Shown here piece by piece: positions 4,281 through 43,185 of a stretch of 46,560 bases of DNA. The notes below the pieces were generated by a model that was not told where the DNA came from, did not search any database, and saw only the letters and a list, made by a program, of their open reading frames with translations. Position 1 is the first letter of the stretch; the number at the start of each line of letters is the position of its first letter. A program made the position numbers and the translations under genes. The stretch comes from Clostridiales bacterium. Its GTDB lineage: Bacteria; Bacillota; Clostridia; Christensenellales; Borkfalkiaceae. The stretch spans positions 1 to 46,560 of the forward strand of contig SVII01000011.1 in NCBI GenBank assembly GCA_015069605.1. Direction: 5' to 3'.

Positions 4281-5660
4281 TTAAAGAGTTACTTGATACA
4301 CCCCTATTTTTGAAGAATAGTATGCTTCCGCTTCTAAATGCATTTCCAGCGGGGAAATACTGTTTATTGTATTCATATTTTCTCCATCGACATTGACGAA
4401 AGCAAAGCAAAATTCCTTGTATTTTGAAACAACTCCACCGATTTTAATGTTATCGTTTGACGTAATTTTTATGATTTTCAAAAGACTAGTTTTCATTTCT
4501 CTTGGATATAAATCAGAAAATCTCGATGCATTTACAAAATAGGAAATTTCATCTTTACCGATAAGCTCGGCCGCCATTTCAAAATATTTCGGCTCTACAC
4601 TTTGAAAACGATGCATAAGCCTATTCAAAGTTTCTATTTTAGTCTCAACCTTGTCTTCATTGAACAATCTTTTATCTAAAATTTTATAAGATTCTTCCAC
4701 CATACGAAGAAGATAAAAATGTACTAATTTTTCGCCTAACTCGGTAATCAACTGCAAAACGTATTCATACTCTACATAGCCCGTTAACAGTTTTTTCAAC
4801 TGAATAATGGTATCCATGAAATATTCAAAAGAAAATATAGTCGGTTGATTGTTTTCCGTAATCTCGTCAAATAATGTCATACCACGAAACCAATAACTTC
4901 GCAGTTTTATTAACTCGCTGGTAAATTGCCAATTTTTCGAAAAGGGAGCATTTTTTGACAACAAATACTGAAAAGTTGGTTCTTTTTTACTAGATAACGT
5001 CCACTTTAATATACATTTTTCTATACCAAAAAATATTTTTGTTAAATACCTTCTATACGTATCATTGAAAGTTTGAGCGTCCGTTTTATCAAACGGTTCT
5101 TTAAATGTAAGGGTATCTTTTCCCTTGCCGCATAGTTGGTTAAAATACTGTTGCGCCGACCTTTGAACTTCACTCGTTTCATTTTTTGCAAAGCAGTAAA
5201 AATACTTTGTTTGGATATGGGACGTAATAAACGAGCTAAGTTGATGTTTTTGACTAAGAAATGCAAGAACGTAAAACATCCCATACACCGTCAAACCTAC
5301 CTCAGTAGTAATATCGTATTGCGGAGTGGGAAACGTATTGAAAAATTCTTGCAGCTCTTTAGGAATACGAATAATTACGTTTAAAAAAAGATGACTGTTT
5401 ACCTTCCTTATTTGCCGAAAAATCATTATTAATTGTTCCAATTGTAAAGGCGTCATTTTTGCCAGATTGGGAAAATATCGAATAAACGTATCATTCATGA
5501 CAATAGGTTCATTTTCTGTTAATTGAACGCCTAAATTTATTTCAAAAAACCTTTGAATATCCGCGCAAAGCTCCATTACACCACTTTTAAGGTCTATAAT
5601 TTTTTTATCAATTTTATCATAAACTTTTATCAATGAATCAGAAAAAGTAAATCTTCTCAA
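4281..5660 (-). CDS. Unrecognised 459-residue protein in the rho-like operon
   Basis: I do not recognise this family. It starts with TTG, supported by AGGAG (5669-5673) with an 8-nt spacer; the SD lies between the rho stop and this start, so it is co-transcribed with the Rho-like gene. The sequence is rich in aromatic residues, Lys and Ile, with many predicted helices. There is no clear signal peptide, no run long enough to be a confident membrane segment, and no catalytic motif I can name. The C-terminal 70 residues (ITSNDNIKIGGVVSKYKEFCFAFVNV and on) look beta-rich. Base composition is more AT-rich than the housekeeping neighbours. It is followed by a strong terminator. Confidence 0.7.
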   Translation of the reverse strand: MRRFTFSDSLIKVYDKIDKKIIDLKSGVMELCADIQRFFEINLGVQLTENEPIVMNDTFIRYFPNLAKMTPLQLEQLIMIFRQIRKVNSHLFLNVIIRIPKELQEFFNTFPTPQYDITTEVGLTVYGMFYVLAFLSQKHQLSSFITSHIQTKYFYCFAKNETSEVQRSAQQYFNQLCGKGKDTLTFKEPFDKTDAQTFNDTYRRYLTKIFFGIEKCILKWTLSSKKEPTFQYLLSKNAPFSKNWQFTSELIKLRSYWFRGMTLFDEITENNQPTIFSFEYFMDTIIQLKKLLTGYVEYEYVLQLITELGEKLVHFYLLRMVEESYKILDKRLFNEDKVETKIETLNRLMHRFQSVEPKYFEMAAELIGKDEISYFVNASRFSDLYPREMKTSLLKIIKITSNDNIKIGGVVSKYKEFCFAFVNVDGENMNTINSISPLEMHLEAEAYYSSKIGVYQVTL

Positions 5661-5685
5661 AAATCAATCTCCTATGAGTAAGTTG

Positions 5686-7197
5686 TTATTCCGTTTTTAA
5701 ACGTTTTATAAATTGTTCATAATTTCTCGAACTTGAAATTGTTTTTATAAACTGTTCTTCACCATGCTTTGGCAAATATACCTCGCGAAGATACCGTTCC
5801 ACTTGTTTTCGGTCTTCCTCCATCAAGCAATCCCATTCTTGGGCGCGCGTTGCTTGGAAATCGATTGCGGGATAGATACGTTTTAACGCTAAGGAATCGC
5901 TTAATACAATCTCTAAATTGGAGATTGTGGATAATTCGGAATAAATCACTTCGTCTACGGGATTGCCCGTTCCAACCGAAACCGCGCCTAAAATCATGAG
6001 CGAACCGCCCTTTTCAAAACACCTTGCCGCGCCTAAATATTTTTTGAGATAATGCACAGTTTTGCTTTCTAAACCGCCCACAAGCGTTTTCCCGCCCGAA
6101 GATTCATCTGTGTCGTTATAAGCTCTCGCCAACGCATTAAAAGAGTCCACAATCAAAACAACGTCGCGACCGCTTTCCGCCAAACGTTTTGCTCTTTTTA
6201 ATATAAAATCGGCAACAAATACCTGTCTATCGGGATCGTCGTCATATGTTGTGTACACAAAATTTTCTTTATCGCAAATCTTCCTAAAACGAGAAACCAC
6301 CTCAGGAGATTGATCAATCAAAAGTGTCAATACCGTCGGATTGTCGGGGGATTTTGAAAACGCTTGGATTGTTTCAAATAAAAATCCCGTTTTCCCCATT
6401 TTTGGTGATGCGGAAACACAGCCACGCTGTCCTTTTGCGATCGGCAAAAGCCATTGCATATATTTCGCAGTCACCGAACATTCCTCTTCATTCCTAATAA
6501 AATTGAACTTTTCTTTCGGAAAACAAACGTCCTCTTCCTCAAAATCCCTACGAGTAAATGAACCTACCACTAAATCGTTGATGGTTAAAATATCTTTCGC
6601 AACGAGTACGCTACTACTCTTTTGTGCGTGGCAAGAAATCAAATCTCCATCTCGCAAGGAAAATTCCTGCTTCAATTCATCGGAAATAATAATTTTTTCC
6701 GCGGAGTCCATACAGTTTAAAGGCAGCAATAAGGATACTTCGTTTAACGTTACTAACTGCCCACGATAAATTGTATAATCAAACTGTTTCTCCAAATCAA
6801 ATTTTGGAGCGTTCGGATCTTGCACCCTGAAGACGTTCTCTTCTTTGTTACCTAATTCGTTGAACATCTCCAAAACGTTATATTGAGGGCCCTTCCCTTT
6901 CGTTTCCGCGGGAATAGCCTGTCCACCAAGATAGGAAACCTTTAACCTTTCGATACCGACCGAAATTTTAGGGTCGAAATAATCGTTTTTTACGGGCGCA
7001 CCGCGTTTGCTGGGAACAACAGCCTCTAATTCCCCCGAAAGCACTGCAACAATCTCTTCCACCAAGGTGTCTTTGTTCTTTTTCGTGGGAACGTCTACCC
7101 CAATTTTACGAGCGTATACACGCAAACTGCTGTGACTGAATTGCGCGAGAAATTGACGGCTTTCATATTTAAATCTCATCAAATTGCTTTCGTTCAT
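5686..7197 (-). CDS. rho: Divergent transcription termination factor Rho
   Basis: A 503-residue RecA-type ATPase of the Rho family. Residues about 20-60 resemble the Rho N-terminal helical domain (SLRVYARKIGVDVPTKKNKD) and residues 140-200 occupy the place of the RNA-binding cold-shock domain, but without the FGFLR RNP motif. Walker A is ASPKMGKT (263-270) and Walker B is VLIVDS (Asp351). Q-loop GGKTLVGG and GAAR...KGGSL are recognisable. Against E. coli Rho, Glu211-Arg212 are Gln296-Ser297, Arg269 is Ala355 and R-loop Lys326 is Pro413. Arg440 (KRIYPAID) is kept. The ATG chosen overlaps the upstream MBL stop (ATGA, 7194-7197); a longer frame to 7290 would overlap it by 97 bp. It could be a second, specialised Rho. 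Confidence 0.85.
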   Translation of the reverse strand: MNESNLMRFKYESRQFLAQFSHSSLRVYARKIGVDVPTKKNKDTLVEEIVAVLSGELEAVVPSKRGAPVKNDYFDPKISVGIERLKVSYLGGQAIPAETKGKGPQYNVLEMFNELGNKEENVFRVQDPNAPKFDLEKQFDYTIYRGQLVTLNEVSLLLPLNCMDSAEKIIISDELKQEFSLRDGDLISCHAQKSSSVLVAKDILTINDLVVGSFTRRDFEEEDVCFPKEKFNFIRNEEECSVTAKYMQWLLPIAKGQRGCVSASPKMGKTGFLFETIQAFSKSPDNPTVLTLLIDQSPEVVSRFRKICDKENFVYTTYDDDPDRQVFVADFILKRAKRLAESGRDVVLIVDSFNALARAYNDTDESSGGKTLVGGLESKTVHYLKKYLGAARCFEKGGSLMILGAVSVGTGNPVDEVIYSELSTISNLEIVLSDSLALKRIYPAIDFQATRAQEWDCLMEEDRKQVERYLREVYLPKHGEEQFIKTISSSRNYEQFIKRLKTE

Positions 7198-7844
7198 TTT
7201 TCTTTGATACGCTCCATAAAAATTATTTGCGTGTTTTGATCTTGTAACTCTTGTTTTTGAATTTCTATTTTTCCTTCCGAACAAACGCACACGGGGTAGT
7301 TTTTACAAAGTTGTAAAAATTCTGCTTCCGTGGCAATATCTAACGCGCCGTCTTTGGGTCTGTAATGCATAGGAATAACGATTTTGGGCTGCACTGCATC
7401 CACGTATTCTTTCGCTTGTTTTGCGTCAATGGTGTACGTCCCGCCAATCGGCAACAATAAAATATCGGGGTGACCGATTTTTTCCAATAATTCTTGAGAG
7501 CAGCTTTCCCCTAAATCCCCCAAATGACATACCGACATACCGTCGATATTTAGAGTAAAAATTGTATTTATTCCTCGTAAAGTGCCTTGCTTAGGATCAT
7601 GGAAACTAGTTTTACTGATAATCTTCGTTTCAAACACGGTGTACTCGCCCACTGTCCTAATTACGTCTTCACAATCCACTCCGTCCAAATAACAATGGTC
7701 GAAATGTCCGTGACTACAAGTTACGATATCCGCTTTGATTTTCGGCATTTCATAGCCTACTTTGGTGTATGGATCGGTAACGAATACAATATTGTTTTGA
7801 TTTGTCAATTTAAAACAGGAATGCCCAAGATATTCGATTATCAT
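7194..7844 (-). CDS. MBL-fold metal-dependent hydrolase (UlaG/UPF0173-like)
   Basis: A small beta-lactamase-fold protein of 216 residues. It starts MIIEYLGHSCFKL and has the metal-binding signature HGHFDH (residues about 45-50), then CHLGD and PMHY, the usual set of His/Asp ligands for two metal ions. Members hydrolyse phosphodiester or lactone bonds; the substrate cannot be told. SD AGGGG precedes the ATG. It lies 29 bp after the DUF1934 gene and overlaps the Rho-like start by 4 nt (ATGA), so the three genes form one operon. Confidence 0.85.
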   Translation of the reverse strand: MIIEYLGHSCFKLTNQNNIVFVTDPYTKVGYEMPKIKADIVTCSHGHFDHCYLDGVDCEDVIRTVGEYTVFETKIISKTSFHDPKQGTLRGINTIFTLNIDGMSVCHLGDLGESCSQELLEKIGHPDILLLPIGGTYTIDAKQAKEYVDAVQPKIVIPMHYRPKDGALDIATEAEFLQLCKNYPVCVCSEGKIEIQKQELQDQNTQIIFMERIKEK

Positions 7845-7873
7845 ACCTTTCCCCTCGCAATTTTGGTTAAACT

Positions 7874-8257
7874 TTATTGAAAACGCGCCAACAAACGTAA
7901 TTTCATTTCCTGGATTTCTCCGCTGATTATCAAATCGTATTTAAGGGCCATCAATACGGAGTTTTTACTGACGGAATACGCAACTTGGTGTGCAAACGTC
8001 AACACTTCGCCTTCCGCACCGCCGATCCCGAGAATTCCAACGCTTTGCCTTCCTTGTTCAAGCGTCAATCGCAAAGAATAATCCCCTTTTCGTTCTATTT
8101 CTATGCGACCGTTTTGTGTGGATAAAAACACCGTTGCGTTTTCTTCTCGATAGCAAATTTTCACCTCCGAAACGGATGTTTCCATCTCTCCGTGACGAAT
8201 AATTTGACTTTCATTCCCGTCGGTAATTGTTGTGATCGTTACTTGACAATTCTCCAT
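7874..8257 (-). CDS. DUF1934 (YwiB-like) beta-barrel protein
   Basis: 127 residues, the size of the DUF1934 family (B. subtilis YwiB), which forms a small calycin-like barrel of unknown role. The sequence alternates hydrophobic and polar strands (VKICYREENATVFLSTQNGRIEIERKGDYSLRLTLEQG), followed by GILGIGGAEGEVLTFAHQVAYSV and LALKYDLIISGE-like ending. SD AAGGG precedes the ATG. First gene of the operon with the MBL hydrolase, the Rho-like factor and the 459-aa protein. Confidence 0.75.
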   Translation of the reverse strand: MENCQVTITTITDGNESQIIRHGEMETSVSEVKICYREENATVFLSTQNGRIEIERKGDYSLRLTLEQGRQSVGILGIGGAEGEVLTFAHQVAYSVSKNSVLMALKYDLIISGEIQEMKLRLLARFQ

Positions 8258-8288
8258 TTTTCGCCCTTTTTCGACATTTTTCGTATTC

Positions 8289-8317
8289 AGTATATCAAAT
8301 TTTGTACAAAAAGTAAA
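8289..8317 (-). promoter_or_regulatory. Probable promoter of the DUF1934-MBL-rho operon
   Basis: -10 TATACT (8289-8294) and a weak -35 TTTACT (8312-8317) on the minus strand are 17 bp apart, about 30 bp before the DUF1934 start codon. Confidence 0.45.
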
Positions 8318-8374
8318 ATAGTTAAACCTATTTTTGAAAAATATTCTTTAAAAATCATACTTCGCAAGAAAAAA

Positions 8375-8389
8375 GGACCAAAATGGCCC
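8375..8389 (-). terminator. Terminator after spoIIID
   Basis: GGACCA-AAA-TGGCCC with A/T flanks (stem extendable over about 8369-8395). On the minus strand it reads GGGCCATTTTGGTCC followed by T6, directly after the spoIIID stop. Confidence 0.75.
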
Positions 8390-8393
8390 TTTT

Positions 8394-8657
8394 TTACCTT
8401 TCATTATGTGTTTTTGCACTGTATTTTTCTTTCGTAGCGTTACCGCCACGGATATGTCTTTCGCTCAAATTGACGTTTAATATCTTGCGCGTTTGCTCAT
8501 ATAAGCCTTCGTCAATGTATTTTAGACGTTCGGAAACGTCTTTATGTACCGTTGATTTGCTGATGGAAAAATGCGCGGAACACGCACGAACGGTACAACC
8601 CGTTTCTACGATATATTCCGCGCACTTAATCACTCGCTGTTCGATATAATCCCACAA
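8394..8657 (-). CDS. spoIIID: Sporulation transcriptional regulator SpoIIID
   Basis: 87 residues, the family length. The helix-turn-helix VRACSAHFSISKSTVHKDVSERL is diagnostic; SKSTVHKD is near-invariant in SpoIIID, and the tail SERHIRGGNATKEKY also matches. In B. subtilis it is a mother-cell DNA-binding protein that activates and represses genes of the sigma-E regulon. It starts with TTG at 8655-8657, fixed by GGAGG with an 8-nt spacer. It is downstream of parC by 74 bp and ends in its own terminator. It shows that this lineage has, or recently had, endospore formation. Confidence 0.95.
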   Translation of the reverse strand: MWDYIEQRVIKCAEYIVETGCTVRACSAHFSISKSTVHKDVSERLKYIDEGLYEQTRKILNVNLSERHIRGGNATKEKYSAKTHNER

Positions 8658-8731
8658 AATCCCGACCTCCGTAATTCGATTACGAAATATTCTATGTCGG
8701 TTTTTCGCGGTTTATAACTGATTTTATCTAA

Positions 8732-11197
8732 TTACTCCCCTTTTTTATAGGGCATGGGGATTACCTGTTTTACCGAATCTTCTGCGTAACGGAACACTCT
8801 CTTTGCCCTCGCGCTTTGAACGGAGATAAAGATGTCTTCGCTGGAAAGTTCGGATACTGCATTATTCTTTTCAACGACTGCCAACATATACGGCATAGTT
8901 ACGTAGCTTGCGCAAAGAACGCTTGCTCCTTCGCGAAGACCAACGATAATTGAGCCTTTCTTATAACGTTTAGAAGGTTCTATTTGCGAGGAGATTACAC
9001 GTTTGAATTTCCCTTCGTCCGTGGCGATAATAATTTCACCTTCGCCGTTGATTTGCGTCATCAAAATTACACTGTCGCCCTCACGGAGCATGATTCCGCG
9101 AACGCCCGTCGCAACTCTGCCCTGCGTGGGAATATCGTCTTTCATTGCATTCAAGCAAACCCCGTCTTTGGTAACGATAATAATCGTATCTTCTTCGTTT
9201 GTGTCCTCTTCAACGCCGATTACTTCGTCGTCTTCGTTGAGCTTGACGGCTTGGAAACTGTCTTTACGCTGTTCGTATTCCGCCCATTCGGTCTTTTTGA
9301 TCATACCTTTCTTTGTAAAGAACAACAGACTGCCATACGGCATAAAATCGCCAAGTTCAAACAACGCAACGACTTTTTCACCTGTTTCTGCGTCTTTTGA
9401 CAAGTCTTTTAAGCTGATGCCTTCATCCGAAAGTTTACATTCGTAGTCAGGATCGGAGAAATCAAGTTTATGACAATTACCGTAATTCGTAAACGCAAAG
9501 ATACGTTTATCCGTCACAGTGTCCAAAATTTTCAACGCAATAAGTTGCGGTTTGAATTTGCCCTCCAACGGTTTATCTAATGCCTCCGCTTGCTTGCCTG
9601 TCAATACTTTAAACTTATCGTCCGCCGTATAGACCAACTTGCAAGGTACGCCCGGTTTCTTTTCTTCCGAAGTTGCAATCAAATCGTCCGCCTCCTCTCT
9701 CGTAAAGACAAGTTTTGTCTTTCTAGGCGAAGGATATGCGTTTTTGATTTCGGTGATTTCTTCTTTGACAACCTGCAACTGCAATTCGCCGCTCTTGGAA
9801 ATTGCCGTGAGTTTCTTGATTAACTTCTTGAGTTCTTTCAGCTCGTTTTCAAGTTTTGTGATTTCAAGTTTGGTCAATCTTGCCAACTTCAAATCCAAAA
9901 TTGCTTGCGCTTGCTCGCGGGAAATTTCAAAACGTTCCATCAAACGAACTCTTGCATCCGCCGTACTTTCGGATTTTTTAATGATGGCGATGACTTCATC
10001 AATATTTTGAACGGCGATAATCAAACCTTCCAAAATATGACAACGTGCTTGCGCTTGCTCCAAATCAAACAACGTTCTGCGTTTGATTACTTTTTGTTGG
10101 TACGCTACGTAATGACGGATAATTTCCATCAAGCCAAGCTGTTGGGGTTTGCCGTCTGCAATGACAACCATATTGATACCAAACGTCACTTCAAGATCGG
10201 TATATTTATACAAGCATTTCAACGTAGCTTCCACGTCCGCATCTTTCTTCAAACGAATCACAGCGCGCATACCCGTTCTATCCGATTCGTCCGCTACGAA
10301 ATCCAACCCCGCAAGCTCTTCCTTCTTTTCTTCGCGAAGATCAACGACTTTGCGGAGAAGTTGCGCCTTGTTTACCTGATAAGGAAGTTCGGTGATAATG
10401 AGGTTTGTTTTTCCGTTGTCCGTCTTTTCCGCTGTAATTTTTGCGCGGAGTGTAATCTTACCTCTACCTGTCTTATAGGCTTGGATAAGTTCGTTTGCAA
10501 TAATCAAACCGCCCGTGGGGAAATCGGGAGAAGGAATATATTCCATCATTTCTTCCAACGAAATCGCGGGATTGTCGATATACGCTACGACGCCATTGAT
10601 GACTTCTTCTAAATTGTGCGTAGGGATATTCGTTGCCAAACCTACGGCAATACCCGATGCGCCGTTGACGAGCAAGTTGGGAAATCTACCAGGTAAAACA
10701 TCGGGCTCTTCCAAACTATCGTCGAAGTTAGGGGAAAACGTAACCGTTTCCTTATCGATATCACGGAGCATTTCCAATGCCAAAGGCTGCATTCTAGCCT
10801 CGGTGTAACGCATCGCAGCGGCAGGGTCGCCGTCCACAGAACCGTAGTTACCGTGACCGTCTACAAGCGTTTTGCCCATATTGAAATCCTGCGCCATTCG
10901 TACCATCGCATCGTATACCGAGCTGTCGCCGTGAGGGTGGTATTTACCCATGCAATCCCCTACGATACGAGCGCACTTTTTATGCGGTTTATCGGGCGTT
11001 AAGCCCATTTCTTTCATGGTATATAAAATACGTCTTTGTACGGGTTTTAAACCGTCCTCTACTCTGGGAAGCGCACGGTCGAGAATAACGAATTCTGCGT
11101 ACGGGAGCATCGAGGAGTGAAGAACTTTTTCCAAAGGTTCTACGAATAATTGACCTTGCGGTTCAATCTTTTCAGGTTCGACTTTCTTTCTCGCCAT
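8732..11197 (-). CDS. parC: Type IIA topoisomerase subunit A (topo IV ParC-like)
   Basis: 821 residues. The breakage-reunion domain has the quinolone-region signature [20 protein letters not shown] and the catalytic Tyr131 in [12 protein letters not shown] central coiled coil (about 430-490, [19 protein letters not shown]) is followed by a C-terminal beta-pinwheel. No canonical GyrA box (QRRGGKG) is visible, only weak blades such as [11 protein letters not shown], so I favour topoisomerase IV (decatenation) over gyrase (supercoiling); this assignment is not certain. The parE stop and this ATG are one base apart, with AGGAGG inside the parE end, so the two subunits are coupled. Confidence 0.8.
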
Positions 11198-33932: not shown

Positions 33933-35066
33933 TTAGGACATTCGGCGTTTTAAATCTCTGCCGATTTCATTTAAAATTTCTATCGCCTTTTCTATTTCTT
34001 CTTCCGTCGTTTCAGGGGAAAAGCTAATTCGAAGCACCCCATCCGCCGTCTTTTCATCATATCCGCACGCCAAAACCACTCTACTAAACCGTGTTTTTGC
34101 ATTCGAGGAACACGCCGAGCCCGTACCAATAATCAAGCCTTTGTCGTTTGCCATTTGTTGCAATACTGCTCCACGCAAGCCAACCGCAGATACCGTTAAA
34201 ATGTACGGCGTTCCATTTTCAGGCGATAATCGCACGTACACGTCGTGGTCTAATCCATTCCAAACCTTTTCCCGATACGACTTCAAACGTTCGCTATCCT
34301 TGGATAAATCAGCAAATTTCACCTGCGCCGCATATTCAAATTGTTTGATACCAAACGTATTTTCCGTTCCGCTTCTCTTACCGTTTTCCTGACCGCCGCC
34401 GATCAAGTACGGAGCAATCACAAGCGTTTTTCTCTTAATCAATGCACCCACGCCTTTTAATCCGCCGATTTTATGTGCGCTGATAGAATATAAATCCACT
34501 TCTTTTGCCAAACGAACGGGAATCTTTCCATACGCCTGCACACCATCACTGTGAAAAATAACACGAGGATTTTTTTGTTTTACCTTTTTCGCAATCGCGT
34601 TGATATCGTTGATCGCGCCGATTTCGTTGTTCACGTGCATTACGGAAACAAAAGTCGTTTTATCATCCACCAAAGCCAACAATTTTTCCACGTCCACGCT
34701 TCCGTCTTTTTTCAAAGGCGAATAACGAGCCTCGGCAAGTCCTTTGTTTTTCAATTCCGCGAACGGAGAAAGTACCGCGGAATGTTCCCCCATCGTCGTT
34801 ACGGCATTGCCGCGTCTTGCAAAGGAAAAAATTGCTTGATTGTTGGACTCCGTGCCGCAAGACGTGAAAATCAGCTCAAACGCTGTTTCGTCGGCTATCT
34901 TGGAAAGCAAAGCGGAGCGCGCTTTTTTCAGCTCGCCCTGCACCGCAAAACCTTCCTTGTACAATGCGGAAGGGTTATAAAATTTTTCCGTTACGTATTC
35001 TTTTGCAAGCATAAACGCCGCCTCGGAAGGCTTTGTTGTAGCCGCATTATCCAAATATATCATCAT
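33933..35066 (-). CDS. Cysteine desulfurase, NifS/IscS family (ThiI partner)
   Basis: 377 residues, PLP fold type I. YLDNAATTKPS opens the protein, HSDGVQAYGK holds the cofactor Asp, SISAHKIGG contains the PLP Lys199, and GTGSACSS contains the persulfide Cys319. Takes sulfur from cysteine and, given its place directly before thiI (13-bp gap), most likely passes it to ThiI, like B. subtilis NifZ. It overlaps the upstream membrane-protein gene by 4 nt (ATGA). Confidence 0.94.
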   Translation of the reverse strand: MMIYLDNAATTKPSEAAFMLAKEYVTEKFYNPSALYKEGFAVQGELKKARSALLSKIADETAFELIFTSCGTESNNQAIFSFARRGNAVTTMGEHSAVLSPFAELKNKGLAEARYSPLKKDGSVDVEKLLALVDDKTTFVSVMHVNNEIGAINDINAIAKKVKQKNPRVIFHSDGVQAYGKIPVRLAKEVDLYSISAHKIGGLKGVGALIKRKTLVIAPYLIGGGQENGKRSGTENTFGIKQFEYAAQVKFADLSKDSERLKSYREKVWNGLDHDVYVRLSPENGTPYILTVSAVGLRGAVLQQMANDKGLIIGTGSACSSNAKTRFSRVVLACGYDEKTADGVLRISFSPETTEEEIEKAIEILNEIGRDLKRRMS

Positions 35067-35695
35067 TGTTGTTGATTTTTCTTTTTTTCTTGCGAAACGT
35101 AATCACTTTCCAAGACAGTTCTTTTGGCAAACTTCATAATATTTACCAAAAGCTGTTCTTTACATTCCAAAATATATAATTTCTTACCATTGTCGTTTGC
35201 AAGAATGTACATAAAGAATTTGCCTTGCGCCGCTTCTGTATTCGACGTGCAAATAATTTCTTTCGTCGATGGATCAGAACGAAAACGCTCGTAAGAACTG
35301 TTTTGAATATCCCCAACTTGAATCATCTCCGCGCAGTCGATACGCGTGATCAGCTTTCTTTTGTTGACATTAAAAACTTTAGAAATTCTCAATTCCCCGG
35401 AAACAAACACATAATCGTAGCTTACGTTAAAGTGACTCTTCCATCTAAAAAGGCCGAACCACAAAGCCAAAAACATTAAGCCTTGCGCTCCAAGAAAACC
35501 AATCATAGATTGATACGCTACCGCACTTTCATTTGAAGGGTCTACTCCGCCAAACGGGAACGAGAACACAAATATCACCAACAGTACAATTGCTAAAATC
35601 AAAAATGCAATCGATAAAACGTGTACGATCGTGTAGCGTCTTGCGCCCTTTTTGGCGTCGTGAGCCGCTGCGCTTTCTTCGTAAAAAACGTCCAT
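35063..35695 (-). CDS. Two-TM membrane protein of unknown function
   Basis: 210 residues. Two membrane segments (about 25-48 and 62-84) are followed by a cytoplasmic beta-rich domain starting NVSYDYVFVSGELRISKVFNV and KRKLITRIDCAEMIQVGD, which has the look of a bacterial PH-like (YdbT/bPH) domain; that is a pattern-based inference. The end is Lys/Gln-rich. SD AGGAG precedes the ATG. Coupled to the cysteine desulfurase by a 4-nt overlap and placed 20 bp after carB-dapF, so it may be read with either group. Confidence 0.75.
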   Translation of the reverse strand: MDVFYEESAAAHDAKKGARRYTIVHVLSIAFLILAIVLLVIFVFSFPFGGVDPSNESAVAYQSMIGFLGAQGLMFLALWFGLFRWKSHFNVSYDYVFVSGELRISKVFNVNKRKLITRIDCAEMIQVGDIQNSSYERFRSDPSTKEIICTSNTEAAQGKFFMYILANDNGKKLYILECKEQLLVNIMKFAKRTVLESDYVSQEKKKNQQQ

Positions 35696-35715: not shown

Positions 35716-38700
35716 TTAAATTTCAAACGTGCCTTCATATACAGTCTTCACGTTCCCCATCAATTCCACCGTATCGTCAGAATGATAGTTGACTGTCAAA
35801 TCACCGCCGCGAAGTTTTACTGTTACGTTGGTATCCTTTTCACAGTATCCGCTAAGAACAGCCGCTACTACCGCCGCACACGCACCAGTACCACAAGCCC
35901 AAGTTTCCCCTGTACCGCGTTCCCATACACGCATCTTCAACGTTACTTTGTTGACAACGCGAATAAATTCGGTGTTGATGCCATCAGGGAAATATTCGCA
36001 AGTTTCAAACGCAGAACCAATGGTTTGAACATCGATTGCATCCACTTTGTCGGTAAAAATAACGCAATGAGGATTACCGACATTTACAAGCGTAATTTCG
36101 TGCGTCATGCCCTCTATTTCCACCGTTTTACCTACGATTTGTTCTTCCGTCCAAACGGATGGAATTTTTTTGCCTGCAAGCTCTACTTTGCCCAAGTTTA
36201 CACTTGCCGTATTTACTTTGCCGCTGAAGGAATATACTTTTACGTCAAAGACGCCCTTTGCCGTTTCAATTTTTAAATCGTTTTTGTTAACAATGCCTTT
36301 TTCGTATAAATATTTACCTACGCAACGAATCGCATTACCACCCAAAGGCGTTTCTTTACCATTTTTATTGAATACACGCATCTTTGCGTCGGCTTCGGAC
36401 GAGTTTTCAATCAATACGATTCCGTCGCCACCGATTCCGTAATGGGGCTGCACGTAGTTTACCGCAATCGATTCGGGACAAGTAATTTTACCATCACGGT
36501 TGTCGAATACGATATAATCGTTACCGCAAGATTGCATCTTCGTGAAATTGAGTTTGAGTTTCTCCGAACGTAACGCATTGATATCGACAAGCTCGGTGTT
36601 ATCTTCGGTGAAACGGCTAGCAAGAATATCCGCCAACGCGTTCGCCGTATCCAGCGCAGTCAAAACGGTGATACCGAGCAAAATCGCGTGATGGTGTAAT
36701 TTGATAAAGTCGTTGATAGATTCCATGTCCGTTTTACCGGTATAGACAATATAGTCAATCTTGCCTTCATCCATCAGTTTAATCACCGTATCGGTTGCAG
36801 ACAATCTATCCACCACTTCACAATCAAAACCAAGGTCGGTGATCACTTGCGCCGTGCCTTTGGTAGCGTACATATTACAGCCTAAATCCCCAAATTTTTT
36901 CGCAATCGTCAACACGTCCAGCTTGTCCTGATCATTTACCGTCATATACACGCCCACGGGACGACGTTCGGAAGGATGGCACATCTTAAAGCCCGCCGAA
37001 ACAAGCCCTTTAAACATCGCTTCTTCAATCGTTTTACCGATACCAAGGACTTCGCCCGTCGATTTCATTTGCGGCCCAAGCTGCGAGTTTACGTCATTCA
37101 ATTTTTCAAAGCTGAATACGGGTACTTTTACGGCAACATACGGCGACGAGGGATATAATCCCGTACCAAAACCAAGCTTTTTAAGTTTTGCACCTGCAAT
37201 AATCTTCGTTGCAAGCTCTACCATCGGCACTCCCGTAACTTTGGAAATATACGGCACGGTACGCGACGCTCTGGGATTTACCTCAATCACGTACAGCTGT
37301 CCGCGGTAAATCAAATACTGAATATTGATAAGACCTTTCGTCTTTAATTCCAACGCAAGTTGTGTGGAAACTTCGATAATCTTTTCCAACATGGTATCGT
37401 CAAGATTATACGGAGGATATACGGCAATCGAGTCTCCCGAATGAATACCCGTACGTTCTATGTGTTGCATAATACCAGGAATTAATACGTCTTTTCCGTC
37501 GGAAATGGCGTCAACCTCTAATTCCGTACCCATGAGATATTTATCGCAAAGTACAGGGTTTTCAATGCCTTGCGCCAAAATAACTTCCATATAACGGCAC
37601 ACGTCTTCTTTCGTGAACGCGATCGTCATATTTTGTCCACCGATTACGTAAGAAGGACGCAACAATACGGGATATTCGAGTTTCTCCGCCGCCGCAAGCG
37701 CTTCTTCTTCCGTCATGACCGTGATTGCTTTCGGACGGGGAATGGTATATTTTTCAAGCAACGCTTCAAAACGCTCTCTATCTTCCGCTCTATCAACGCT
37801 GTCCGCGGACGTACCAAGGATACGAATACCGTGCGAATCAAAATACGCGCAAAGGTTGATCGCCGTTTGACCGCCGAACGTGATGATGACGCCGTAAGGC
37901 TTTTCGATATCTAAAATATGCTGTACGTCCTCTGCCGTCAACGGCTCAAAATACAATCTGTCCGCCGTGTCAAAGTCAGTGGAAACCGTTTCAGGGTTGT
38001 TGTTGATGATAACAACTTCATACCCAAGTTCTTTCAGCGTCCATACGCAATGTACGGACGAATAGTCAAATTCGATACCCTGACCGATACGAATAGGCCC
38101 TGAACCGATAACAACAATACGTTTCTTTTCGCTCTTTTCGACGAAAGGTTTTGCTTCGTCGTGATCGAATGGATCGAACGTCGAATAGAAATACGGTGTT
38201 TTTGCAGGGAATTCCGCCGCGCAAGTGTCCACCATTTTATATGCCGCTTTCTTTCTATAAGGGATTTTTTGACCGCTGAATGCTTCGATATCTTTGTCCA
38301 AATATCCAAGTCGCTTCCCTTCTTCATACAGTTCGCGCGTCAATTTTTCCGTCGATAATTTTTCTTCGTAAGCGATTAAGTTTTTAAATTTATTCAAGAA
38401 CCAACGGTCGATTTTCGTAATATTGAACACTTCATCCACAGAAACGCCTTTTTTGAGCGCAGCATATACCACGAAGATACGTTCGTCCGTCTTTTCAGGC
38501 AATTTCGCTAACAATTCTTCTTTCGTGGAATGCAGGAACTTCTTATAATTGAAGGTACTCGTCGAAATTTCTGCTCCGCGCACCGCTTTCATCATCGCCA
38601 TTTCAAAAGACGTACCGATCGACATAACTTCGCCCGTCGCTTTCATTCTCGTACCAAGTTCACGCTTTGCATACAAGAATTTATCAAACGGCCATTTGGG

Positions 38701-39771
38701 CATCTTTACAACCAAATAGTCGATCGTGGGTTCGAAACAAGCATACGTATTGCCCGTTACGTCGTTGACAATTTCGTCCAACGTATAGCCAAGCGCGATT
38801 TTAGACGTAACTTTTGCAATCGGGAAACCCGTCGCTTTGGACGCCAACGCCGAAGAACGGCTAACACGAGGATTTACTTCAATTACCGAATATTCAAAGG
38901 AATCGGGATTTAATGCAAACTGTACGTTACAACCGCCCTCAATCCCAAGTTCGCTGATGATCGCAAGCGCAGCCGAGCGCAACATATTGTATTCTATATT
39001 TGAAAGAGTTACAGCAGGAGCAACGACGATAGAGTCGCCCGTGTGAATACCAACGGGATCGACGTTTTCCATCGAACATACCGTCAATACGTTGCCTGCA
39101 CTGTCGCGCAAAACTTCAAATTCGATTTCTTTCCAGCCCGCAATATATTTTTCAATCAATACCTGCGTAATAGGCGATAACATCAACCCATTATGGGAGA
39201 TTAAACGAAGTTCTTCTTCGTTGTATGCTACGCCACCGCCTGCACCGCCCAACGTATATGCCGGGCGAATGATGACAGGATAACTAAGACGATTTGCTAT
39301 CGCTACGCATTCTTCTACTGTATATGCGATATCCGAGGGAACGCAAGGTTGATGAATTTTCTCCATCGTTTCCTTGAACAATTCTCTGTCTTCCGAACGG
39401 TCGATTGCGTCGAGCTTCGTACCGATCAATTTAACGCCGTGTTCTGCTAAAAAGCCTGATTTTGCGAGTTTACAACCCATCGTAAGTCCTGTTTGTCCGC
39501 CCAAAGACGCCAACAAACTGTCGGGTTTTTCTTTGATAATGATACGTTTTAACGATTCTTCCGTCAACGGTTCCAAATAAATTTCATCAGCGAGCGCGCT
39601 ATCCGTCATGATCGTTGCGGGGTTGGAGTTGCAAAGTACAACGTTGATCCCCTCACTCTTTAATACGCGGCAAGCCTGCGCGCCTGCATAGTCAAATTCA
39701 GCAGCTTGACCGATTACGATAGGGCCAGAGCCGATTACCAATACTTTCTTAATATCACTTCTCTTAGGCAT
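35716..39771 (-). CDS. carB: Fused carbamoyl-phosphate synthase large subunit (CarB) and DapF-like epimerase domain
   Basis: A single frame of 1351 residues. Residues 1 to about 1065 are a complete CarB: first ATP-grasp half (GGAGGGVAYN, IEVNPRVSRSSALASKATGFPIA), oligomerisation region, second ATP-grasp half (FGGQTAINL, VIEVNPRASRTVPYISK) and an MGS-like allosteric domain (GVYMTVNDQDKLDVL). From about 1070 a diaminopimelate epimerase fold follows (FTKMQSCGNDYIVFDN, GIGGDGIVLI, WERGTGETWACGTGACAAV). The second catalytic Cys is kept (Cys1293), but the first, in the CGNxxRC motif, is Gly1144 (PLGGNAIRC, codon 36340-36342). CarB makes carbamoyl phosphate; the DapF domain probably cannot racemise DAP by the usual two-Cys mechanism. 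Overlaps carA by 8 nt. Confidence 0.9.
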   Translation of the reverse strand: MPKRSDIKKVLVIGSGPIVIGQAAEFDYAGAQACRVLKSEGINVVLCNSNPATIMTDSALADEIYLEPLTEESLKRIIIKEKPDSLLASLGGQTGLTMGCKLAKSGFLAEHGVKLIGTKLDAIDRSEDRELFKETMEKIHQPCVPSDIAYTVEECVAIANRLSYPVIIRPAYTLGGAGGGVAYNEEELRLISHNGLMLSPITQVLIEKYIAGWKEIEFEVLRDSAGNVLTVCSMENVDPVGIHTGDSIVVAPAVTLSNIEYNMLRSAALAIISELGIEGGCNVQFALNPDSFEYSVIEVNPRVSRSSALASKATGFPIAKVTSKIALGYTLDEIVNDVTGNTYACFEPTIDYLVVKMPKWPFDKFLYAKRELGTRMKATGEVMSIGTSFEMAMMKAVRGAEISTSTFNYKKFLHSTKEELLAKLPEKTDERIFVVYAALKKGVSVDEVFNITKIDRWFLNKFKNLIAYEEKLSTEKLTRELYEEGKRLGYLDKDIEAFSGQKIPYRKKAAYKMVDTCAAEFPAKTPYFYSTFDPFDHDEAKPFVEKSEKKRIVVIGSGPIRIGQGIEFDYSSVHCVWTLKELGYEVVIINNNPETVSTDFDTADRLYFEPLTAEDVQHILDIEKPYGVIITFGGQTAINLCAYFDSHGIRILGTSADSVDRAEDRERFEALLEKYTIPRPKAITVMTEEEALAAAEKLEYPVLLRPSYVIGGQNMTIAFTKEDVCRYMEVILAQGIENPVLCDKYLMGTELEVDAISDGKDVLIPGIMQHIERTGIHSGDSIAVYPPYNLDDTMLEKIIEVSTQLALELKTKGLINIQYLIYRGQLYVIEVNPRASRTVPYISKVTGVPMVELATKIIAGAKLKKLGFGTGLYPSSPYVAVKVPVFSFEKLNDVNSQLGPQMKSTGEVLGIGKTIEEAMFKGLVSAGFKMCHPSERRPVGVYMTVNDQDKLDVLTIAKKFGDLGCNMYATKGTAQVITDLGFDCEVVDRLSATDTVIKLMDEGKIDYIVYTGKTDMESINDFIKLHHHAILLGITVLTALDTANALADILASRFTEDNTELVDINALRSEKLKLNFTKMQSCGNDYIVFDNRDGKITCPESIAVNYVQPHYGIGGDGIVLIENSSEADAKMRVFNKNGKETPLGGNAIRCVGKYLYEKGIVNKNDLKIETAKGVFDVKVYSFSGKVNTASVNLGKVELAGKKIPSVWTEEQIVGKTVEIEGMTHEITLVNVGNPHCVIFTDKVDAIDVQTIGSAFETCEYFPDGINTEFIRVVNKVTLKMRVWERGTGETWACGTGACAAVVAAVLSGYCEKDTNVTVKLRGGDLTVNYHSDDTVELMGNVKTVYEGTFEI

Positions 39772-40843
39772 TTTCGTTCTCCTTTTTCATAAGCTGAAAG
39801 AATTTTTTGTACAAGGGGTTTTCTGTATTACCTGCGCTGCAAGATTCTGGCGTAAACTGAATAGTAAACGCTTTATACTCATCGTAATCGATACCCTCAC
39901 ACGTGCCATCGTTAACGTTGATAAATTTAATTTTACCCACTTTAATCGTTTCAGGAATTACCGTATAACCGTGGTTTTGCGAGGAAATATATACTTTCCC
40001 GCATTTTTGGCATTTTACGGGTTGTCCGCCAACGTGGCTTTGTTTTTGTTTCATCGTTTCCGCGCCGAATGCCAACGCCACCATTTGATGACCAAGTCCC
40101 ACACCAAATACGGGAATTTTGCCGACAACCTTTTTAATTTCTTCTATAATTTCTTTGTTTTCTTCGGGATCGCCGGGGCCGTCACTGAGCATAACTCCGT
40201 CTGCTCCCAACGCAAGGATTTCTTCCGCCGTTGCCGTCGCAGGCATACTGACTACCTTACAATCTTGCGAGACCAAATTGTTGATCATGCTGTTTTTTGC
40301 GCCGAAATTCCAAAGTGCAACGGTATATTTCGCCGTGGCTTCTCCATATTCCGTCTTTTGCGTAGGCGCAACCGTTTTCACTGCGTCGCGAATACAAAAA
40401 TCAGGGATTTCCTCAAATGCTTCAAAATCAAGAGGCTTACTGCTGATACGAGCACTCATCACACCCTCTTCACGAAGCACCTTTGTCAGTTGACGAGTGT
40501 CAATGCCGTAAATACCGATAACCCCTTGTTCTTTCAGGTACTCGTCCAACTTTCCTTGCATACGAAAATTGGAAGGATCGTCGCAAATTTCACGCACGAT
40601 ATATGCAGAAACCCAGCATTTTTCGCTTTCTACGTCACTGCGGATAACCCCATAATTGCCGATCAAGGGAAACGTTTGCACTACGATTTTTCCGTAGTTA
40701 GAAGGATCAGTAAGCGTTTCCATATACCCAACCATATTCGTCGAGAATACAAGTTCGCCCGTAATGTCACCTTCCGCACCAAAACGATAGCCTTGGAACA
40801 CATCGCTATTTTGTAACGTCAAATACACCTTTTTCGTTTTCAT
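39764..40843 (-). CDS. carA: Carbamoyl-phosphate synthase small subunit with a degenerate glutaminase triad
   Basis: 359 residues from the ATG at 40841-40843, which has GAAGG 5 nt upstream. The N-terminal CarA domain is normal (FGAEGDITGELVFSTNMVGYMETLTDPSNYG, partly quoted; YGIDTRQLT). The class I glutaminase fold is present (LSDGPGDPEENKEI, QNHGY), but the nucleophile Cys of the G-C-LGHQ motif is Gly249 (FGVGLGHQM) and the His of the HPE motif is Thr331 (QFTPES); Glu333 remains. An insert with CQKCG is found before SSQNHGY. Glutamine hydrolysis is therefore not expected, and free ammonia is the likely nitrogen source, as in animal CPS I. Coupled to carB-dapF. Confidence 0.88.
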   Translation of the reverse strand: MKTKKVYLTLQNSDVFQGYRFGAEGDITGELVFSTNMVGYMETLTDPSNYGKIVVQTFPLIGNYGVIRSDVESEKCWVSAYIVREICDDPSNFRMQGKLDEYLKEQGVIGIYGIDTRQLTKVLREEGVMSARISSKPLDFEAFEEIPDFCIRDAVKTVAPTQKTEYGEATAKYTVALWNFGAKNSMINNLVSQDCKVVSMPATATAEEILALGADGVMLSDGPGDPEENKEIIEEIKKVVGKIPVFGVGLGHQMVALAFGAETMKQKQSHVGGQPVKCQKCGKVYISSQNHGYTVIPETIKVGKIKFINVNDGTCEGIDYDEYKAFTIQFTPESCSAGNTENPLYKKFFQLMKKENENA

Positions 40844-40901
40844 AAGCACCTTCTATATTTTTTTCTTTTTTTTGCGTATTATTAACTTTTTTATAAAAAA
40901 T

Positions 40902-41155: not shown

Positions 41156-42391
41156 TTAATTTTTCCCATTGTTTACAGTAGAAAAGGATCTACCGATTGC
41201 CGTAGAAGAATAATTCCCCTCGCCTAAATCCACAAATAACTCCACTTCATCCTCATGTAACGCCCTTTCTATCGCTTGCGGTTCAATAAAGAGTGCTTTA
41301 CCTTCTTCCCAAACAACAATGCGGTCGTCTTCATTTCCAATAGAGATTTGCACCTGTTCAAAATCCACTTCTGTTCCCGTACCAACGATTGCGAAAAGTA
41401 TCCCTTCCAAATCCAGCTTTTGCTTAGAAAACGCCTCTTTCACACTTTGCGAACCAACAATGTTTTTCGCTATCGCGCGCGTCGTTTGTTTGGATTTTCC
41501 ACCGCGCACATTGCAAACAATGGCTTTTGCATTTTCACTCTTGGCGATTGTTTTACAAATCTCTATCGAAGCCAAATGCAAAGCGATTGCAAATTTTTTA
41601 TATTCGGAATCGGGATAGTCAATCCGATAATTCCCCGCTTGACCGTTAGCAAGAATACAAACCATATCATTAGGCGACGGTTGTCCATCTACGTTTAAAA
41701 GGTTGAAAGAATCGCGAATTTCCGTGTCCAATGCCTTTTGCAGCATCTTCGGGGAAATGTTCGCGTCCGTTGTAATAAAACATAAAAACGTAGCAAGGTT
41801 TGGACAAGTTTTGGTATTCCCCTTAAAAACCGCGCCAATTCGACAAGGATATGCGCCCAAATCAAACTCGAAAGACAGTTGCTTCCCTCGCGCATCTGCG
41901 CAAGTGAGCGCACGCGTTAGCTTTTCACTATTTTCTACCGAATGGTGTAAACCTGCTACAAGTTCCTTTATCTTCCTTTCAAACGGTTCAAGTTTCACCT
42001 CTTGGTCGATTCGCCCCGTAGAAGCAATCGCAACTTCTTCTTTTAATGCTATGGTATTTCTCTCTACTAAACGGCAAATCTCTTCCGCGACTTTCTTTCC
42101 ATCCTTTTGAAAAACGTTTGCAACCTCTCCGTTAAACACGATAGCACGGGAAAATCCCGCCATTCGTTGCTGATATAATTTTGTGATTTCGATTGGCGCG
42201 CCAACGACACCGCAAGTGGAATAGACGCACGCCGACGACGCGCGTTTTTCGGAAAAAATCAAACCAAAATCTTCCTTCTCCGCCTCTTCTTTATTAATTC
42301 CGCACGAAACTGCGTTCGCCAAAAAGCCTTTCGGCGCGCATATTCCGCCGTCCACGTTACGCAATTCTCTGTCAATGCCGTTCTTTCGCAC
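41156..42391 (-). CDS. Divergent ArgJ-family (ornithine acetyltransferase-like) protein
   Basis: 411 residues, GTG start with AGGG. The overall fold is ArgJ: GGICAPKGFLANAVSCGI at the start, the oxyanion Thr125-Gly126 (ASTG), and the self-cleavage site PNLATFLCFITTDA with Thr201 as nucleophile. Many signatures are changed: NSGNANA is FNGEVANV, AKGSGMI is VFKGNTKTC, DGEGATK is lost, and the C-terminal YVKINADYRT is replaced by SFSTVNNGKN. Normal ArgJ moves acetyl from acetylornithine to glutamate. No other arginine gene is here apart from carA/carB. It could be an altered-substrate acyltransferase. Lies 12 bp after the thioesterase gene. Confidence 0.75.
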   Translation of the reverse strand: MRKNGIDRELRNVDGGICAPKGFLANAVSCGINKEEAEKEDFGLIFSEKRASSACVYSTCGVVGAPIEITKLYQQRMAGFSRAIVFNGEVANVFQKDGKKVAEEICRLVERNTIALKEEVAIASTGRIDQEVKLEPFERKIKELVAGLHHSVENSEKLTRALTCADARGKQLSFEFDLGAYPCRIGAVFKGNTKTCPNLATFLCFITTDANISPKMLQKALDTEIRDSFNLLNVDGQPSPNDMVCILANGQAGNYRIDYPDSEYKKFAIALHLASIEICKTIAKSENAKAIVCNVRGGKSKQTTRAIAKNIVGSQSVKEAFSKQKLDLEGILFAIVGTGTEVDFEQVQISIGNEDDRIVVWEEGKALFIEPQAIERALHEDEVELFVDLGEGNYSSTAIGRSFSTVNNGKN

Positions 42392-42403: not shown

Positions 42404-43150
42404 TTATTCTTCAAAATATATCTGTGATTGCGTGACGATTTGCCCCACTTCGTTAAAACCATGCGCCAAATAACTGCCATCCTCTAAACGCTTGCGGTAA
42501 AAATACAACGTTTCGTTTTCCTTACATTGTTTAACGTACGTAATCGAAAACTTTTTCAGCTTCTTTTTTGCAAGTTCCGCAATTGAAAAACAATTGAAAC
42601 AATAGTCCGCATAACGAGTGTTGTTCACGTGCATATTGTGATCGTATTCAGAGTTCGCTATGGTGATGGTAAATTTCAATTCTCCTTCTTCTTGTTTGAA
42701 AACGGGAATTTTCCATTTTGGCGACTCTATTGCTTTGGAAGTGTTATAAGTCGTATAATCTTGGTTATCAATTACCTTGGATTGCAACAGTTTTCCCTCG
42801 TGCATATCTATCAAACACCATCGTGAGGACGCATTGATCGCATTTTCGCCCTTGGCATTGAAAAATTGATATTCCCTCCCGAAAATCACGTGCGTCGGGG
42901 GCGTGGGCCACGTTCGCACTTCCACCCTTTCCCCTAAAACAATAGGTTTGAAAAATTCGCAACAAATATTACAAACCATAAACGCATACCCTCTCGGATT
43001 TACGTACGCGTAGCCAAACCCAAGCTCGTCCGCACTGAAACAAGCCACCTCTTCCATCAAAGCAAGCACCGTGGACGTTTTAATTTCGTCTTTGAAATCT
43101 ACGTCACAATATTTAATCGTAAATTGTTGTTTATGCTCGTAAAGTTCCAT
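42404..43150 (-). CDS. Acyl-ACP thioesterase
   Basis: 248 residues, two hot-dog domains as in the FatA-type family. FTIKYCDVDFKDEIKTSTVLALM opens the first domain (quoted in part), and SEYDHNMHVNNTRYADYCF in the second carries the D-x-N-x-HVNN active-site signature. It releases fatty acids from acyl carrier protein. The ATG at 43148-43150 falls at the predicted transcript start (see promoter), so the mRNA seems leaderless; a GTG five codons upstream would lie in the -10 region and is rejected. First gene before the ArgJ-like one. Confidence 0.88.
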   Translation of the reverse strand: MELYEHKQQFTIKYCDVDFKDEIKTSTVLALMEEVACFSADELGFGYAYVNPRGYAFMVCNICCEFFKPIVLGERVEVRTWPTPPTHVIFGREYQFFNAKGENAINASSRWCLIDMHEGKLLQSKVIDNQDYTTYNTSKAIESPKWKIPVFKQEEGELKFTITIANSEYDHNMHVNNTRYADYCFNCFSIAELAKKKLKKFSITYVKQCKENETLYFYRKRLEDGSYLAHGFNEVGQIVTQSQIYFEE

Positions 43151-43156
43151 ACATAT

Positions 43157-43185
43157 ATTATACACTTTTTGGCAAAAAATGTCAA
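43157..43185 (-). promoter_or_regulatory. Consensus promoter giving a leaderless thioesterase mRNA
   Basis: Perfect -35 TTGACA (43180-43185), 17-bp spacer, perfect -10 TATAAT (43157-43162). Six bases (ATATGT) separate the -10 from the ATG, so the A of ATG is the expected +1. Confidence 0.8.

Follow-up and report, generated by a model that had tools for sequence, protein, structure and literature searches.

We describe a gene in which the large subunit of carbamoyl phosphate synthetase (CPS), CarB, is joined in a single open frame to a diaminopimelate (DAP) epimerase domain, DapF, that has lost the first of its two catalytic cysteines. The gene occupies positions 35716..39771 (- strand) of the window, i.e., the whole analysed stretch of 46,560 nucleotides from contig SVII01000011.1 of the Clostridiales bacterium assembly GCA_015069605.1 (Borkfalkiaceae, Christensenellales). 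Each part belongs to a known family. The tail, a selectively disarmed DapF, is not classed as a DapF enzyme because only one member of the catalytic Cys pair, a defining feature, is present. Judging from sequence comparisons, the chances are about equal for and against the former epimerase tail having been kept as a non-catalytic, DAP-binding module of an ammonia-using CPS. No description of a CarB-DapF fusion was found in the open-licence papers searched.

A preliminary description of this DNA had proposed that one uninterrupted frame joins a full-length CarB to a full-length DapF fold, and this was borne out, as the frame runs from start to stop over 1351 amino acids and both parts score above curated cut-offs. 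Residues 1-1052 (36616..39771, - strand) match the CarB profiles NF003671 with 1428 bits and TIGR01369 with 1389 bits (cut-off 1027). The 16 positions that we took to represent the ATP-grasp sites of both halves are all identical to E. coli CarB (16/16), and the CarB part should be active. A short linker (residues 1053-1074, 36550..36615, - strand) leads to the DapF domain (residues 1075-1349, 35725..36549, - strand), which aligns with solved DapF sequences and scores 247.5 bits against TIGR00652 (cut-off 114.65); PF01678 matches the fusion in two stretches with 169 bits (cut-off 34.7), and the tail has the DapF fold. Alignments with solved DapF sequences and with relatives confirm the earlier assignment of Gly1144 (36340-36342, - strand) to the position of the first catalytic Cys (H. 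influenzae Cys73) and of Cys1293 (35893-35895, - strand) to the second (H. influenzae Cys217). Recoding or a general loss of Cys was ruled out, since the gene retains other conserved Cys as well as the second catalytic one, the latter still encoded by TGT. The residues described in the excerpted text of PMC12039745 as holding the distal amino acid of DAP (H. influenzae Asn64, Asn157, Asn190, Glu208 and Arg209) are all five present in the window as N1135, N1233, N1266, E1284 and R1285, with the numbers matched by motif.

The fusion is not an artefact of one assembly, being present in 32/37 genomes of the genus. Its first catalytic site holds Gly in 31 of these and Ser in one, and its second site holds Cys in all 32 (in G004 the domain is split over two contigs, with one site read on each); the comparison across genomes that had been suggested for position 1144 thus found the first Cys absent in all 32. 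Among the other five genomes, the only DapF of G001, G002 and G031 is a separate one, G005 has neither a DapF nor a CarA above the cut-off, and no fusion was found in G023, where CarA lies 2.3 kb from the contig end, which leaves too little room for the full fusion gene. Outside the genus, the fusion occurs in many records of Clostridia, including Ruminococcus sp. FC2018 (L122) and Mobilibacterium timonense (L181), and in a Treponema bin (L141); the contig scan for fused genes kept the best 80 loci. A plasmid search gave 114 records, all below 60% identity (5 looked at).

Altogether 169 distinct DapF domains were compared (excluding the fragments L035, L036, L226, L227 and the second piece of L150, and the duplicates L105 and L221): 71 are separate and 98 are fused, the latter consisting of 27 with both Cys and 71 without the first Cys. 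The first Cys is present in 69/71 separate domains. The idea that the fused form as such is the dead form did not hold, since 27/98 distinct fused domains carry the first Cys and are probably working epimerases; the fusion itself is therefore not what marks the dead form. All 27 have every pocket residue examined, and the ancestral fused domain looks like a working epimerase. On both a quick tree (169 domains) and a careful tree (108 rows) the fusion label changes twice. The first Cys was lost nine times on the careful tree, with at least seven losses forced by well-supported branches, and nine times on the quick tree, with at least two forced. The main Cys-less clade holds 63 rows, among them the window's genus (support 98/92 for the split itself, 86/87 after re-rooting), and the other eight losses are single rows. 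The second Cys is retained in 70/71 Cys-less fused domains, with L067 as the exception. As to gene order, G011 has separate carA, carB and dapF genes in a row (L075, 3964-8800, - strand) and a fused copy on another contig (L042); the precursor of the fusion might resemble such a row. In two further loci (L154, 2-3820; L221, 814-5679) a separate dapF directly follows a fused carB-dapF.

The Cys-less fused domain is very probably not a DAP epimerase. According to the excerpted PMC5296763, the C83A variant of C. glutamicum DapF, which lacks the corresponding Cys, has almost no activity. Another source of meso-DAP was found in 65/68 Cys-less fusion genomes, of which 33 have only a DAP dehydrogenase, 26 only a separate dapF, six both and three neither; the same counts in 18 Cys-bearing fusion genomes are 7, 4, 0 and 7. 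When fusion genomes without the dehydrogenase are considered, a separate dapF is present in 26/29 Cys-less but only 4/11 Cys-bearing ones. The presence of both genes in these 86 genomes was entered by hand from the genome searches: G042 was scored as dehydrogenase-positive from partial matches and as lacking a separate dapF despite DapF fragments, the dehydrogenase match of G011 is partial, and an additional short piece of DapF lies at a contig end in G025. Within the genus, a separate Cys-bearing DapF is found in 10/10 genomes without DAP dehydrogenase (three of these also without the fusion) versus 1/27 with it. A DAP dehydrogenase is encoded in full in the window's own genome (TIGR01921, 446 bits, cut-off 180.6); a separate complete dapF had been named as something to look for there, and no other DapF domain was found in this 84% complete assembly. 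In the 23 Cys-less genomes of G061-G110 with another DapF, 22 separate DapF were read and carry the first Cys, that of G091 being in two pieces and outside the 22. Searches for DapF and dehydrogenase, as per-genome match totals, covered 50/61 fused named loci, leaving aside L106, L126, L130, L134, L135, L138, L140, L142, L153, L166 and L174 (9 Cys-bearing, 2 Cys-less). They included 16 Cys-bearing fusion genomes, 12 of which have no other DapF and six of these 12 no DAP dehydrogenase either; G049, from the window's order, resembles those six in having no other DapF and no dehydrogenase. A lysA match was absent from 17/37 genus genomes (G000-G036), the window's included, many of them incomplete.

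It is quite unlikely that the domain still epimerises with another base, for example Cys1082 at position 9, two residues before Asn1084. This residue occurs in 31/31 genus fused domains read at that site, but its equivalent is also found in 16/27 Cys-bearing fused domains and is missing from 15/71 Cys-less ones, and neither the near inactivity of C83A nor the separate dapF kept in 26/29 Cys-less fusion genomes without the dehydrogenase is expected of a tail that still works.

The synthetase to which the tail is attached appears to have changed its nitrogen source. The carA gene (39764..40849, - strand) overlaps the start of carB-dapF, and its product scores 357 bits against TIGR01368 (cut-off 307.35). 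Both Cys269 and His353 of CarA are essential for glutamine hydrolysis, as stated in the excerpt of PMC6245113, and both are replaced in the window, by Gly251 (40097-40099) and Thr333 (39851-39853), with Glu355 retained. A CarA without these two residues suggests that the CPS of the window quite probably takes free ammonia and not glutamine. Complete CarA was available in the fetched stretch for 27 of the 32 genus genomes with the fusion, and it is dead in 24 and intact in three; these dead partners point to a bacterial CPS dependent on free ammonia. In a goat-colon bacterium (L110) a single frame of 1512 residues (4353-8888, + strand) comprises the N-terminal domain of CarA, CarB and DapF, and a profile search of this frame for the glutaminase domain gave no match. 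The losses in CarA and in DapF are not strictly coupled, as is clear from 65 genomes with complete CarA, in which dead CarA stands with a Cys-less DapF in 31 and a Cys-bearing one in two, and live CarA with a Cys-less DapF in 20 and a Cys-bearing one in 12. DAP dehydrogenase, an ammonia user as the CPS with dead CarA would be, occurs in 29/33 dead-CarA versus 8/32 live-CarA genomes. That carbamoyl phosphate would be left without a consumer was also considered and rejected, as a transcarbamoylase match is present in 59/61 genomes of the set. The window's own genome gave no PyrB/ArgF match and no other class I amidotransferase match, and with 59/61 genomes having a transcarbamoylase, its PyrB/ArgF gap may be missing sequence.

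The substitution pattern of the tail indicates that the domain is not decaying. The ratio of nonsynonymous to synonymous substitution rates (dN/dS) is 0.02-0.055 for the fused Cys-less domain (7 close pairs, chosen at >90% identity) and 0.14-0.20 for the separate DapF (5 pairs, chosen at >75%), rough values given that dS is often near or above 1. Seven genus genomes contain the fused Cys-less domain as well as a separate DapF, and in 21/21 pairs, which share genomes, the fused one is the better conserved (e.g., 96.5% versus 75.2%). Hence the tail is highly unlikely to be a passive relic, broken and about to be lost, even if one essential catalytic residue is gone and the glutaminase of the adjoining CarA is also losing its own. 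The dead site of CarA serves as a partial control: over 34 dead CarA proteins (one sequence, L064/L105, counted twice), His353 is scattered to 11 different residues, with Glu355 kept in 26 and Gln273 in 27, whereas the other DapF pocket residues examined are present in 30-32 of the 32 fused domains at dead-CarA loci.

The pocket also seems to have been left open. In 70/71 Cys-less domains the first site has a small residue (Gly, Ala, Ser or Thr), which is Gly or Ala in 65/71 (the residue of L181, Tyr, comes from an uncertain alignment); such small replacements leave room for a ligand. The five residues of the distal DAP end are present in 66-71 of the 71. We consider it improbable that the domain with one Cys catalyses a different reaction, such as an elimination or a one-sided exchange. 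The retention of the second Cys in 8/9 independent losses (two-sided 0.0078 over those 8, given equal odds of losing either Cys) would fit such new chemistry, and there is a precedent in the excerpt of PMC8142540, in which a Cys-to-Thr change makes hydroxyproline epimerase a dehydratase and eliminations with unnatural substrates are described. The precedent residue is Thr, however, and not the Gly or Ala prevailing here, and the neighbouring genes read suggest no substrate with a leaving group.

Next to the tail, the allosteric (MGS-like) domain of CarB (residues 953-1038, 36658..36915, - strand) has been altered. Lys993, Asn1015 and Thr1017 of E. coli correspond to Arg989, Tyr1010 and Gly1012 in the window, with Lys954, Thr974 and Thr977 retained, so that the UMP/IMP effector site is not that of E. 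coli. Lys954, Thr974, Asn1015 and Thr1017 are positions of this nucleotide site. Thr977 and Lys993 are named for it in the excerpt of PMC6245113. Lys954 and Lys993 are both kept in 24/24 Cys-bearing fused proteins, where 1015 is Ser or Cys and 1017 is Ser. Among the Cys-less ones, Tyr or Phe at 1015 together with Gly or Ala at 1017 is found in 50/57, every one in the main clade, and the remaining 7/57, all outside the main clade, have the older form of the site.

We propose that the C-terminal tail, a former DAP epimerase that would no longer epimerise and that lies next to the effector domain, binds a DAP isomer and closes upon it as DapF does; closure of DapF on ligand binding is described in the excerpted PMC5296763. 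The closure would be passed to the neighbouring effector domain or to the oligomer, and would thereby tune the synthase or hold it together, with CarB and its glutaminase-dead CarA taking free ammonia. In genomes relying on DAP dehydrogenase, as the window's own, meso-DAP would be the likely ligand. We infer here that the tail binds a ligand and has lost its epimerase activity, and that the synthase depends on ammonia; the direction of any control is likewise an inference. The preliminary description had the domain as a regulator rather than an epimerase: its negative half stands as very probable on the evidence of C83A and of the other meso-DAP source in 65/68 genomes, and the retained pocket, the purifying selection and the changed effector site fit a ligand-binding regulator. 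That the tail is a ligand-gated regulator of CPS is, on these residues, a proposal about evenly poised between right and wrong. Only tentatively do we extend it to a large clade of gut Clostridia, in which CPS might be gated by meso-DAP via a disarmed epimerase beside a rewritten effector domain, and be fed with ammonia in the window's genus.

Several observations weigh against this proposal. The genomes G061, G089 and G110 carry a Cys-less fusion with neither a dehydrogenase nor another DapF, and six Cys-less genomes have both a dehydrogenase and a separate dapF. When kinship is controlled for, the association of Cys loss with a separate dapF in genomes without dehydrogenase leaves 2 pairs (median p 1), that of Cys loss with any other meso-DAP source 2 pairs (p 1), that of dehydrogenase with the lack of a separate dapF among Cys-less genomes 7 pairs (p 0.125), and that of dead CarA with the dehydrogenase 5 pairs (p 0.625, not significant). 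These independent-pair tests go in the same direction where they have any, none is significant, and the gene-content argument therefore relies on raw counts from genomes that are related. The replacement of Asn1015 by Ser or Cys and of Thr1017 by Ser is already present in Cys-bearing fusions, and seven other Cys losses with a readable CarB have an unchanged effector site, so the effector change and the Cys loss are linked in the main clade only. In the pocket, Asn11, near the other end of DAP, is kept in 62/71 Cys-less domains and changed in nine; L067 has lost the second Cys, and L146, L147 and L159 have lost pocket residues as well, which in these cases fits a structural role better than a sensing one. 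A sensor and a scaffold cannot be told apart by conservation alone.

Accordingly, the main rival is that the tail is kept for folding or oligomerisation alone and exerts no ligand control, which we regard as possible if rather unlikely. DapF enzymes are dimers (excerpt of PMC5296763) and CPS dimerises via its regulatory domains (excerpt of PMC6245113). In the genus, mean entropy at reference positions 25-36 is 0.03 bits in fused versus 1.30 bits in separate domains, and at positions 241-252 it is 0.32 versus 0.91 bits (31 and 8 rows, respectively), and the three loci with a damaged pocket retain the domain nonetheless. Against a scaffold, on the other hand, speak the second Cys and most residues of the pocket, which (Asn11 apart) persist in 66-71 of 71 Cys-less domains, and the restriction of the first site to small residues in 70/71.

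Upstream of carA in the window lies an ArgJ-like gene (41156..42391, - strand) that reaches 256 of the 298 bits of the NCBIfam ArgJ cut-off and has altered motifs; the ArgJ-like gene is highly divergent in some relatives (L065, L057, L045). Next to it lies an acyl-ACP thioesterase-like gene (42404..43165, - strand), a neighbour in at least 20 genus loci. Directly downstream of the fusion is a 210-aa gene that falls in no recognised family of Pfam or NCBIfam (35063..35695, - strand), matched in 29 further genus loci, and then a NifS/IscS-like cysteine desulfurase gene (33933..35066, - strand), which is a neighbour in many genus loci. The segment 43410-46280 (+ strand) encodes a protein of 956 residues, which is long for a PadR protein; it has a PadR-type regulator domain close to its start and a weak coiled-coil match. 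Riboswitches were sought by the operon with Rfam at gathering scores in seven sources, and only tRNAs were found. The suggested link to lysine chemistry holds for Cys-bearing Ruminococcus (L118, L122), where dapL, encoding LL-DAP aminotransferase (TIGR03542), whose product is the DapF substrate, lies directly downstream of the fusion. Of the Cys-less forms with neighbours read, two have genes of arginine synthesis upstream (argJ-argB-argD-argF in L110, ornithine carbamoyltransferase in L046), while purF and pyrG adjoin the fusion in the Cys-bearing L145.

CPS is a classic example of allosteric control, and DapF, for which annotation usually rests on similarity, counts as an antibacterial target. 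If the proposal is right, a widespread CPS with a disarmed DapF would represent a new effector link from arginine to cell-wall and lysine metabolism, with carbamoyl phosphate for arginine tied to the pool of cell-wall and lysine precursors instead of to nucleotides, and a DapF annotation on CarB fusions need not mean an epimerase. Since one Cys was lost repeatedly, natural replicates are also at hand for studying how an enzyme evolves into a regulator.

Compared with known systems, the tail resembles DapF (TIGR00652, PF01678) in its fold, family score, second catalytic Cys and nearly all ligand-binding residues, and differs from it in lacking the first Cys, in being joined to CarB and, by gene content, in not being the epimerase that the cell needs. 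That a DapF can influence a different enzyme without epimerising is known from E. coli, where a variant in which both Cys are replaced still binds RppH and stimulates it (excerpt of PMC4227774); there, a separate and normally active DapF acts on an RNA pyrophosphohydrolase, whereas here the domain is naturally Cys-less and fused to CPS, and its regulatory role is a proposed one. The fungal fusions of CPS and aspartate transcarbamoylase with an active or inactive dihydroorotase (excerpt of PMC6022934) likewise keep an inactive enzyme domain in a CPS fusion, although the domain, its position and the pathway are different. With bacterial CPS II (CarAB) the system shares the catalytic residues of CarB, the carA-carB order and, in some relatives, adjoining arginine genes, and it departs from CPS II in a CarA without Cys269 and His353, a changed nucleotide effector site and the added DapF tail. 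In animal CPS I the glutaminase part is kept but dead, and to our knowledge no CPS I has a DapF tail. CPS I uses ammonia and is activated by N-acetylglutamate (excerpt of PMC6022934). It agrees with the present system in ammonia as the substrate, presumed here, in a retained but dead glutaminase part and in effector control at the C-terminal end, proposed here, and differs in that here carA is a separate gene and not part of a single peptide chain, N-acetylglutamate has no evident part and a DapF tail is present. If the proposed control is correct, it would parallel, in bacteria, the switch by N-acetylglutamate in CPS I.

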